Assembly: GCA_017511465.1 (NCBI GenBank)
Contig: JAFWJU010000108.1
Location: 1 to 34,904 of the forward strand
From: Eggerthellaceae bacterium
GTDB taxonomy: Bacteria > Actinomycetota > Coriobacteriia > Coriobacteriales > Eggerthellaceae
DNA: 34,904 bases
Reading direction: 5' to 3'
The number at the start of each line of letters is the position of its first letter. The stretch's first letter is position 1. The notes beneath the pieces were generated by a model. It saw only the letters and a list, made by a program, of their open reading frames with translations, did no database searches and had not been told where the DNA came from. The translations under genes were made by a program, and so were the position numbers. Below are positions 454 through 10,685 of the stretch, piece after piece.

Positions 454-476
454 ACGTCATGCGCAAACGATGACGT
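454..476. promoter_or_regulatory. perfect inverted repeat upstream of the small membrane protein gene
   Basis: ACGTCAT (454-460) and ATGACGT (470-476) are perfect 7-bp inverted arms separated by 9 nt. They lie 34-56 bp upstream of the start codon at 420, where an operator would sit. No T-run follows, so a terminator is less likely. The regulator is unknown. Confidence 0.35.
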
Positions 477-523
477 TCGGTTCTGACAAATGGGGAAATA
501 CGACACAAGGGCCATCCGACAAG

Positions 524-552
524 AAAGGCGCCGTGCATGGCACGGCGCCTTT
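524..552 (-). terminator. hairpin terminator of the fructose PTS operon
   Basis: A perfect 13-bp stem (524-536 with 540-552) and a 3-nt loop lie 25 bp past the ptsI stop codon. On the minus strand the stem ends in TTT followed by CTTGT, a short U-tract. The plus strand also has TTTT next to the stem, so it could act in both directions. It separates ptsI from the small membrane protein gene. Confidence 0.75.
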
Positions 553-577
553 TGCTGGTTGCGTTGTTCGACGCACG

Positions 578-2284
578 TTACCGAGCGGCCTCCTGAAGCG
601 CATCGTACACTTCCGTAGCTGTTTTCAGCTGCATGACCTTTTCTGCCAAGGCGCAAGCCTCGTCTTTCGTCCACAACGAGATGGCCTTGCGCGTGGCAAG
701 GACGCTCGTGGCCGAAACCGAGTACTCGCCCAGGCCGAACGCGATCCACAGCGGAACGAGCATGGGATCGGCTGCAGACTCGCCGCACATGCCCACTTGG
801 ATGCCCGCGGCATTGCCGGCGGAGATGACGTTGCGGATGCTGCGCAGCACGGCAGGATTGCACGTCGAGTACAGGTAGCGGACCTTGTCGTTACCGCGGT
901 CGGCGCACATCGTGTAACCGGTGAGGTCGTTGGTTCCGATGCTGAAGAAGTCGGCTTCCTCGGCCAGCAAGTCGGCAATGACCGCCGCTGCCGGGGTTTC
1001 GACCATGACGCCGATCTGGATGTCGGGATTGTACGCGACGCCCTCTTGGTCGAACTCCTGCATGTAGCGCTTGACGAGCGCCTTCACGGCCGTCAGCTCG
1101 TCGACGCACGTGACGAGCGGCACCATGATGCGGATTTCGCCGAACGCGCTCGCGCGAAGCAGGGCACGCAACTGGGTGCGGTACACGTCTTCGCGGGCCA
1201 GGCAATAGCGGATGGCGCGGAAGCCCATGAACGGGTTGTCCTCGCGCTCGAGGCCCATGTACTCGATTTCCTTGTCGCCGCCGATGTCGAGCGTGCGGAT
1301 GATGAGCGGCTTGTTCTTGCAGATGAGCGCTGCTTTCTTGTAAGCCTCGAACTGCTGGTCCTCCGTCGGCATCGACGTGGAGTCCATGAACAGGAACTCG
1401 GTGCGGAACAAGCCGATGCCCTCGGCATCGCGTTCCATCGCCTGCGCGGCGTCTTCGGGCTTGCCGATGTTGGCGAACAGCTCGACCTGCTCGCCCGATG
1501 CGGTGACCGAACGGCAGCCGATGAACTTCACGAGCTCGGCGCGCTCGGCGATGAACGCGGCTTGCGCCTCGCGGGCGGCCTCAAGCTGCTCTTCGGTCGG
1601 GTCGACCGTGACAACGCCCGTGCTGCCGTCGACGATGACCTGGTCGCCATCGGCCAGCCGGTGGCAAACGCCCGCAATCGACAACACAGCCGGGATTTCC
1701 ATGGCGCGCGCGAGAATGGCGGAATGGCTCGTGAGGCCACCCGTCTCGGTGATGACGGCCTCGACGGCGCCGGGGCGGATGCCCGCCGTCATCGACGGCG
1801 TCAGGTCGTGCGTGACGACGATGCTGCCAAGCGGCAACGTGCCCATGTCGACCGGGCGCTTGTTCAGCAACTCGGCGAGCACGCCCGTCTTCACGTCGCG
1901 CACGTCGGTGGCGCGTTGCATGGTCAGCTCGTCGCCCGTGGCCTCGAACATCGTGGCGAACATGTCGCAGATCTGGACAAGCGCGTCTTCGGCGCACATG
2001 CCGCCCTCGATGAGCTTGACCATTTCGCCTTTCATGTACGGGTCGCTGATCATTACGACGTGGCCGATGAGGATTTCGGCTTCCTTCTCGCCGACGGACT
2101 CGCGCATGACGGCAGCTTGCTCGTTGGTGTACTCGATGTAGTTTTCGATGGCAGCACCCAAACGCTCAGCTTCGGCAGCTGTGTCCTCGACGGTGCTGCT
2201 GACGTACTCGAGCACCGGCTCCTCGACGACAACGACGCTCCCGATGCCGATGCCGGCACTGGCAGCGGTTCCCTTGAATTCCAT
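578..2284 (-). CDS. ptsI: phosphoenolpyruvate-protein phosphotransferase (PTS Enzyme I)
   Basis: Cytoplasmic Enzyme I, which takes phosphate from PEP onto a histidine and passes it to HPr. It has 568 residues, normal for the family. The phosphohistidine motif GGLTSHSAILAR is present (His at about 187), preceded by the N-terminal HPr-binding domain. The C-terminal PEP-binding TIM barrel has FRTEFLFMD, a FSIGTNDLTGY segment and the conserved GMCGES cysteine motif. The ATG overlaps the ptsH stop codon by one base (TAATG), indicating translational coupling. It is the last gene of fruK-fruAB-ptsH-ptsI. Carrying EI and HPr inside a fructose operon suggests that this may be the cell's main or only PTS, which I infer and cannot test here. 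Confidence 0.97.
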   Translation of the reverse strand: MEFKGTAASAGIGIGSVVVVEEPVLEYVSSTVEDTAAEAERLGAAIENYIEYTNEQAAVMRESVGEKEAEILIGHVVMISDPYMKGEMVKLIEGGMCAEDALVQICDMFATMFEATGDELTMQRATDVRDVKTGVLAELLNKRPVDMGTLPLGSIVVTHDLTPSMTAGIRPGAVEAVITETGGLTSHSAILARAMEIPAVLSIAGVCHRLADGDQVIVDGSTGVVTVDPTEEQLEAAREAQAAFIAERAELVKFIGCRSVTASGEQVELFANIGKPEDAAQAMERDAEGIGLFRTEFLFMDSTSMPTEDQQFEAYKKAALICKNKPLIIRTLDIGGDKEIEYMGLEREDNPFMGFRAIRYCLAREDVYRTQLRALLRASAFGEIRIMVPLVTCVDELTAVKALVKRYMQEFDQEGVAYNPDIQIGVMVETPAAAVIADLLAEEADFFSIGTNDLTGYTMCADRGNDKVRYLYSTCNPAVLRSIRNVISAGNAAGIQVGMCGESAADPMLVPLWIAFGLGEYSVSATSVLATRKAISLWTKDEACALAEKVMQLKTATEVYDALQEAAR

Positions 2285-2547
2285 TAGTCACCCATTCCGG
2301 CTGCGATGAAGTCGACAACGGCACGGCCGGCTTCGGCTTCCTGTGCGCCTTCGGCGCGGATTTCGATTTCCTCGCCGCACTTGATGCCGGCGGCCATGAT
2401 GGCCATCAGCGAGTTGCCGGGAATCTCGGCGCCATTGCGCACGATGGTGACGGTGGCATCGTACTTGCCGACCTCACCCACGAGCAGGCTGGCAGGGCGC
2501 ATATGGAAGCCCTGCGGATTAACAAGCGTAACTTTCTCGGAGAACAT
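2284..2547 (-). CDS. ptsH: phosphocarrier protein HPr
   Basis: 87-residue HPr, the phosphate shuttle between Enzyme I and the fructose EIIA domain. The active-site His15 lies in GFHMRPAS, with Met where most HPr proteins have Ala. Ser46 is present in GNSLMAIMA, the position phosphorylated by HPr kinase in Firmicutes; no HPr kinase gene is in this window. The start at 2547 is chosen over an upstream ATG because it has a GAAAGGA ribosome site at good spacing and gives the canonical HPr N-terminus. It sits between fruAB and ptsI, whose ATG overlaps its stop codon. Confidence 0.96.
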   Translation of the reverse strand: MFSEKVTLVNPQGFHMRPASLLVGEVGKYDATVTIVRNGAEIPGNSLMAIMAAGIKCGEEIEIRAEGAQEAEAGRAVVDFIAAGMGD

Positions 2548-9861: not shown

Positions 9862-10539
9862 TTATGCGATGACGGTTTTCTCGCTTTCGGCGTGCTTGCA
9901 GTGGCGCTTGGGACGATGCGCGTCAAGCTCATCGCCCAGCTTGTCCAAAATGGCGGACAGCTGCTCCTTTTCCTCGTCGGTCAACACTGCGAACATGTCG
10001 GCGGCGGCCAGGGCGCGGCGCTCTGCGATCTCGGCAGCGCGCGTGCGGCCCTCGTCAGTCAGCGTGACCTGGATGGCACGACCGTCTTCCTGCGACTTCT
10101 TGCGCTCGATCAGGCCGCGTTCCTCGAGGCGCTGCAGCATTTCGCCGAGCGTCTGCGGGCGGATGCCCAACAGGAAAGCCAAATCCTTCTGGTTGATGCC
10201 CTCTTGCATCGAAACCATCGTCAGCACGCGCGCCTGGCCGTGGCGCTTGTGGCCGTGGCCGTGACCCTTGCCGTGGCACTGGGGGCCGTCGAACGGGCGG
10301 CTCTGGGGGCCGTGACCGTGCGGGCCGTGCGGATGCTCGGCGTCGGCGCCCATTTCGAAGGGAGCAGGTTGCGCGCCGGGGCCACCCGGCTTGCACGGAG
10401 CGCCGAACGGGCCGGGGCCGCCGTGGCCGTGGCCGTGCGGGCCGTGCTTATGGCAACCGCGGTCTTCTCCCTCGATGTGACGCATGATCATGCCGGTGCG
10501 GACGAGTTTCTGCATGAGCTCTTCGTTGTTGATAGCCAT
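9862..10539 (-). CDS. MarR-family regulator with a long His/Gly-rich insertion
   Basis: 225-residue winged-helix repressor. Residues 1-25 form a first helix. About residues 26-100 are a His/Gly/Pro-rich segment with roughly 14 histidines and 3 cysteines (repeated HGHGHG-type runs). From about 103 the MarR core follows: helix-turn-helix INQKDLAFLLGIRPQTLGEM, then wing LIERKKSQEDGRAIQVTLT, then dimer helices. The C-terminus is again basic and His-rich (RPKRHCKH). The insertion suggests metal binding, so the protein may sense or buffer Ni, Zn, Cu or Co; this is inference. The gene stands alone. Its promoter carries three copies of an AGTAAG-N4-CTTACT-type palindrome, strongly suggesting autoregulation. 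Confidence 0.88.
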   Translation of the reverse strand: MAINNEELMQKLVRTGMIMRHIEGEDRGCHKHGPHGHGHGGPGPFGAPCKPGGPGAQPAPFEMGADAEHPHGPHGHGPQSRPFDGPQCHGKGHGHGHKRHGQARVLTMVSMQEGINQKDLAFLLGIRPQTLGEMLQRLEERGLIERKKSQEDGRAIQVTLTDEGRTRAAEIAERRALAAADMFAVLTDEEKEQLSAILDKLGDELDAHRPKRHCKHAESEKTVIA

Positions 10540-10568
10540 AACGTTGTTTCCTCTCTCTTGGCTGCTTG

Positions 10569-10658
10569 TTAGTAAGCTTTCTTAGCTTTCGTTGTATATA
10601 ATAATCAGGTTCCTTACTAATGCAAGGGTAGAGGGAGAAATTAGTAAGTTTCCTTACT
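10569..10658 (-). promoter_or_regulatory. marR-like promoter with three palindromic operators
   Basis: On the minus strand, -35 TTGCAT (10620-10625) and -10 TATTAT (10598-10603) are spaced 16 bp. Around them are three related sites. Operator A is a perfect palindrome AGTAAG-TTTC-CTTACT at 10643-10658. Operator B has the half site CTTACTAA (10613-10620) in the -35/-10 spacer, with a left arm matching at 4 of 6 positions. Operator C is AGTAAG-CTTT-CTTAGC at 10571-10586, downstream of the -10. Sites upstream of, inside and downstream of one promoter are the expected layout for a self-repressing MarR protein. Confidence 0.7.
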
Positions 10659-10685
10659 TTCTACATGCCTTGGAAAACGCGCTGT

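Follow-up and report, generated by a model that had tools for sequence, protein, structure and literature searches.

A solitary MarR-family regulator gene with a histidine-rich insert and three putative operators in Eggerthellaceae

Metalloregulators, as commonly described, control separate genes for metal uptake, efflux or storage. In the MarR-family protein AdcR, histidines H108 and H112 of helix 5 are ligands, and the loop between helices 1 and 2 belongs to the zinc-site region, which changes on zinc binding (PMC6224198). The nickel/cobalt repressor InrS, of the RcnR/CsoR family, is a metal-responsive repressor with a histidine ligand in a flexible extension (PMC7055735). We analysed a 34,904-nucleotide stretch of DNA from an Eggerthellaceae bacterium of the gut or rumen (the window) carrying a gene for a MarR-family regulator (marR) with a histidine-rich insert and three putative operators at its own promoter. 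No description of a histidine-rich MarR protein of this type, or of an AGTAAG-N4-CTTACT-type operator, was found in the literature.

The window protein shares the MarR fold with AdcR and ZitR, and ZitR is among the Foldseek matches of its structural model. In contrast to these proteins, which have a short loop, the loop of the window protein is 72 residues long; its helix 162–182 has no histidine, so that the helix-5 ligands of AdcR are absent; it scores 26.4 bits against a cut-off of 175 with the NCBIfam AdcR model (NF038251); and no zinc-uptake genes lie near its gene. Because of the missing ligands and the low equivalog score, we do not file it as a member of the AdcR/ZitR group. The position of the insert is suggestive, since the loop between helices 1 and 2 is part of the zinc-responsive region in AdcR. 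InrS and its RcnR/CsoR relatives are comparable only in manner of working: their fold is unrelated, their metal site is defined and their target is a separate exporter gene.

MepR-type regulators of MATE efflux pumps are also repressors of the MarR type, and relatives of the window protein with similar recognition helices are encoded in MATE-MarR operons headed by the same operator core. The window gene differs in having no MATE gene in an operon with it, in its long histidine-rich insert and in its apparent control of itself only. A second group resembling the window gene comprises MarR proteins with a low-complexity His/Gly-rich segment, from Listeria (L149/L154) and from the same genus as the window (L014). 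These are solitary, and dyads lie both around and inside the core promoter (L149 and L014 have three each), but their histidine-rich part is a C-terminal tail and their dyads are centred on GGTACC. Solitary MarR paralogues whose C-terminal tail is rich in GHGHG and whose promoter is surrounded by ACAGGTACCTGT-type dyads were seen in other genomes of the genus (L013, and L014 with its three dyads).

The regulator gene and its promoter

The coordinates of the gene, its insert and the elements of its promoter are given in Table 1.

Table 1. Features of the marR locus in window coordinates
Feature	Coordinates	Strand	Remarks
MarR-family regulator gene	9862..10539	-	225 aa, His-rich insert; Pfam MarR 4.4e-15; AF2 fold MarR-like
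His-rich insert, residues 27-98	10246..10461	-	72 residues, of which 13 are His, 3 Cys and 20 Gly; predicted disordered; dN < dS, and every aligned His kept in near pairs
Operator 1 (putative), AGTAAG-N4-CTTACT	10642..10659		Upstream of -35; in 9/10 aligned promoters
Operator 2 (putative)	10602..10619		In -35/-10 spacer; in 10/10 aligned promoters
Operator 3 (putative)	10570..10587		Downstream of -10; in 10/10 aligned promoters
-35 element TTGCAT	10620..10625	-	TTGACT or TTGAAT in orthologues
-10 element TATTAT	10598..10603	-	16-bp spacer; TATAAT in L055/L056
Inverted repeat between convergent marR and uvrA-like stop codons	9806..9837		14-nt arms, 93% complementary; probable shared terminator of the two genes

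The protein matched the Pfam models PF01047 (55.8 bits, cut-off 24.6, residues 101–155) and PF12802 (52.1 bits, cut-off 27). An AF2 model built from 15 family members contains the elements of the MarR fold: helix 1 (residues 5–26), a winged helix-turn-helix (97–160) and two C-terminal helices (162–182 and 188–208). The best PDB matches of this model in Foldseek were ordinary MarR proteins, including MarR (3bpx), MexR, SlyA, MepR and ZitR. None of the 25 models listed for named MarR equivalogs passed its cut-off, the best being HpaR (48.8 against 121.2). PADLOC gave only weak winged-helix matches to CARF/Csa3, and Rfam gave no match in the window. The inverted repeat downstream of marR was not called by a scanner for T-run terminators. 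Long open frames lie antisense to marR (9892–10572, plus strand, 226 aa) and to a PTS enzyme I-like gene (470–2287, plus strand, 605 aa); both most likely exist only because codon use is rich in G+C.

In plus-strand coordinates, the dyad at 10643–10658 (AGTAAGTTTCCTTACT) matches AGTAAG-N4-CTTACT without mismatch, and those at 10603–10618 and 10571–10586 have two mismatches each. The window thus holds three dyads, compared with 0.17 ± 0.45 in shuffled sequences, and none of 100 shuffles contained three. One lies upstream of the -35 element, one between the two promoter elements and one downstream of the -10, as the preliminary description had placed them. The core promoter was too weak to be called by a generic promoter scanner; TTGACT-16-TATAAT is present at the same place in L055 and L056.

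Clear orthologues of marR were found in seven further genomes in a genus search, and in eight genera in all in a family search, mostly in gut or rumen MAGs of Eggerthellaceae. The cultured relative Curtanaerobium respiraculi also has a member (L145). Nine of ten aligned promoters (that of the window included) have three operator sites in register with the promoter, and the tenth, that of L057, has sites 2 and 3 only. Site 2 occupies the -35/-10 spacer in these promoters. Measured from centre to centre, the spacing of sites 1 and 2 is well kept (39–41 bp) and that of sites 2 and 3 is looser (27–34 bp). In a more distant clade most members have either two sites close to the start codon or dyads that have diverged; the promoters of L063 and L064 carry the operator motif in weak forms only. 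In a tree of the MarR proteins, the two clades with histidine-rich inserts are distinct from both the tailed proteins and the MATE-linked pair described below; the branches are long and the deep order is unsure.

Conservation of the sites, their spacing and the promoter in relatives strongly supports the earlier suggestion of self-repression through three sites, and on these sequence grounds autorepression of marR through the three predicted operators is very probable. MarR dimers would bind the three TAAG-N4-CTTA operators, which flank and fill the core promoter. RNA polymerase would be blocked once sites 2 and 3 are occupied; site 1, lying roughly four helical turns off, probably contributes cooperativity.

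Composition and selection of the insert

The elements of the AF2 model put the insert where it was first described, after helix 1 and ahead of the winged helix, and the original count of about 14 histidines and three cysteines was right to within one, another histidine lying just beyond the insert. Against a background of 2% histidine, the number in the insert has a P of about 2e-9. The insert is without predicted structure, with pLDDT below 50 at residues 28–43 and 45–96. A histidine-rich insert is present in nearly all relatives, in two separate Eggerthellaceae clades. It ranges from 33 to 77 residues among members, its arrangement is also variable, and no fixed pattern of His/Cys ligands is common to all. 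A near-fixed motif, HGYG(N/S)HKC(H/K)GGSGRHGQ, stands directly before helix 2 in one family clade (L061, L063–L067), where it is possibly an ordered His/Cys metal site.

The variation in length and arrangement, together with the repetitive coding DNA of the insert (GGC-CAC runs), would suit a neutral low-complexity linker, such as repeat slippage could create in a gene rich in G+C, with no function related to metal. However, dN in the insert is far lower than dS in the close pairs L050–L051 (dN/dS 0.019/0.868) and L052–L053 (0.016/1.50), and it is also below dS between the window and its nearest relative, L050 (0.24/1.28). In this last comparison the residue is changed at 23 of 67 aligned insert codons, yet all 13 histidines are kept, with a silent CAC/CAT change at eight. 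The probability that no change strikes a histidine is 0.002 for window–L050, 0.009 for L055–L056 and 0.21 for L063–L064; alignment with gaps may slightly favour histidine matches, and the inserts of L055 and L056 are of equal length with 58 of 58 codons aligned. Low dN and retention of histidines argue against neutral slippage and suggest that the histidines have a role, and the abundance of histidine in nearly all members also speaks against a neutral linker, which we consider improbable. Judged by these sequence comparisons, purifying selection acts on the insert, and its histidines have been kept more often than chance would predict.

Such a loop might also tune the regulator without metal, for example through pH-sensing histidines, by forming condensates or by looping among the three sites. 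The predicted disorder of the insert and the presence of several spaced operators are compatible with tuning of this kind, but the cysteine kept beside histidine in one clade (HGYGNHKCHGG) is a better fit to metal, and we regard non-metal tuning as very unlikely. Metal binding by the histidine-rich loop, to which composition and histidine retention point, appears rather likely. Selection on the insert, and the place of the helix 1–helix 2 loop in the zinc-site region of AdcR, lend indirect support to the metal part of the earlier interpretation.

Search for further targets and relation to MATE operons

The neighbours of marR in the window are a glycosyltransferase gene and a UvrA-like gene. 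Neighbouring genes are common to close relatives only, and no neighbour is conserved across genera. Neither a metal transporter nor a metalloenzyme gene was recognised among the neighbours by eye or with Pfam, and there is no MATE gene beside marR in the window. NiFe-hydrogenase genes are present in all 15 genomes of the genus, whether or not the regulator was found in them, so that nickel use does not discriminate between these genomes; CbiM was found in none of the 15.

Regulon scans were made with consensus patterns, exact or with few mismatches, and the genome to which the window belongs is a MAG of 1.89 Mb, 90% complete, in which weak operators would be missed. When this genome was scanned with TAGTAAGN4CTTACTA, the two best matches (one and two mismatches) were those in the marR promoter. 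The third site of that promoter has three mismatches, as do six other places in the genome. Seven other matches were inspected; five lie in or overlap open reading frames, and two (on C31 and C67) have no clear gene start nearby. No convincing second target was found by consensus scanning of this 90% complete MAG. In single-site scans of this genome and 18 relatives, counts were at or below those of a reversed-pattern control in most genomes. The initial observation that the gene has no target but itself can be extended from the window to the genome, within the range of a consensus scan.

An NhaC-type antiporter gene was rejected as a target; the promoter-like site seen in G012 and G005 is missing in the other orthologues, including that of the window's own genome. 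The antiporter leaders of G005 and G012 have a TATGAG-N4-CTTATA dyad ahead of a TATAAT box. A different dyad, GGCCATGA-N(3-6)-TCATGGCC, lies upstream of the ribosome-binding site in the 5′ leaders of many NhaC-type orthologues from several genomes of the genus (L184–L191) and is missing from the G005 and G012 leaders. Sites in G008 (C30), G062 (C58) and the purE region of G105 and G106 were judged to be due to chance.

Close pairs of TAAG-N4-CTTA matched in six of 396 genomes of the class. Three of the matches are promoters of this marR, two precede a MATE gene each, in G082 and in G418, and one is chance-like; a reversed control also matched a handful of genomes, and the count alone proves nothing. 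In both G082 (L126:2875-4862) and G418 (L127:1448-3324) the paired sites precede a MATE efflux gene followed by a short, insert-less MarR gene, whose product is the best homologue of the window MarR in that genome. This arrangement is a candidate MepR-MepA-like operon in Coriobacteriia.

These operons bring in the possibility that the window protein is an ordinary efflux-type MarR regulator, released from its operators when the usual MarR pocket takes up a small molecule, be it a drug, a bile salt, a phenolic or another compound. The histidine loop would then be secondary, and a transporter would be run in trans through weak sites or from the missing part of the genome. The paired sites at both operons, the identity of the gene after MATE as the best-scoring homologue, and the Foldseek matches to MexR and MepR, both efflux regulators, are all in keeping with this. 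Against it, the G082 and G418 MarR proteins have no insert, the paired-site counts are near those of the reversed control, no MATE promoter of the window's own genome has a near-consensus site, and the histidines of the insert are kept above chance. We treat this explanation as possible but not the favoured one. On C72 (L128:3769-8908), about 1.2 kb separates the clearest MATE gene of the own genome from what appears to be a FeoA-FeoB iron transporter gene, and the own-genome scan found no TAAG-N4-CTTA site there.

The window marR is most likely an orphan autorepressor of an efflux-type MarR lineage, with a metal-binding loop, and the occurrence of TAAG-N4-CTTA at MATE-MarR operons suggests its origin.

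A possible metal-responsive circuit

As an explanation of the whole locus we favour a solitary, autogenously repressed MarR protein whose histidine loop binds metal and is derepressed by it, with a probability of roughly 0.45. The disordered His/Gly-rich loop, which follows the dimerisation helix and precedes the winged helix, would coordinate a transition metal, for instance Ni, Zn, Cu or Co. A metal-filled loop may loosen operator binding, with the result that more of the metal-binding protein is made, and sensor and buffer would then be joined in one polypeptide. The fold and operator core would be those of a MarR lineage found elsewhere in MATE efflux operons. Within this explanation, metal-gated derepression of marR is put forward tentatively.

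It is conceivable, though doubtful, that the gene forms a complete metal-homeostasis circuit by itself, in which the repressor targets its own gene only and the histidine-rich loop is the metal store. Metal would free the repressor from the triple operator until there was enough protein to buffer it. If this is true, the histidine-rich members of the two Eggerthellaceae clades and their histidine-tailed Listeria cousins would be versions of one device.

A conserved regulator that apparently controls mainly its own gene and carries a selected histidine-rich loop would unite the sensor and the buffer in a single protein. Proteins of this type would add a metal branch to the MarR family unlike AdcR and ZitR. 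Since all three operators keep their register with the promoter in different genera, the system can be tested directly.
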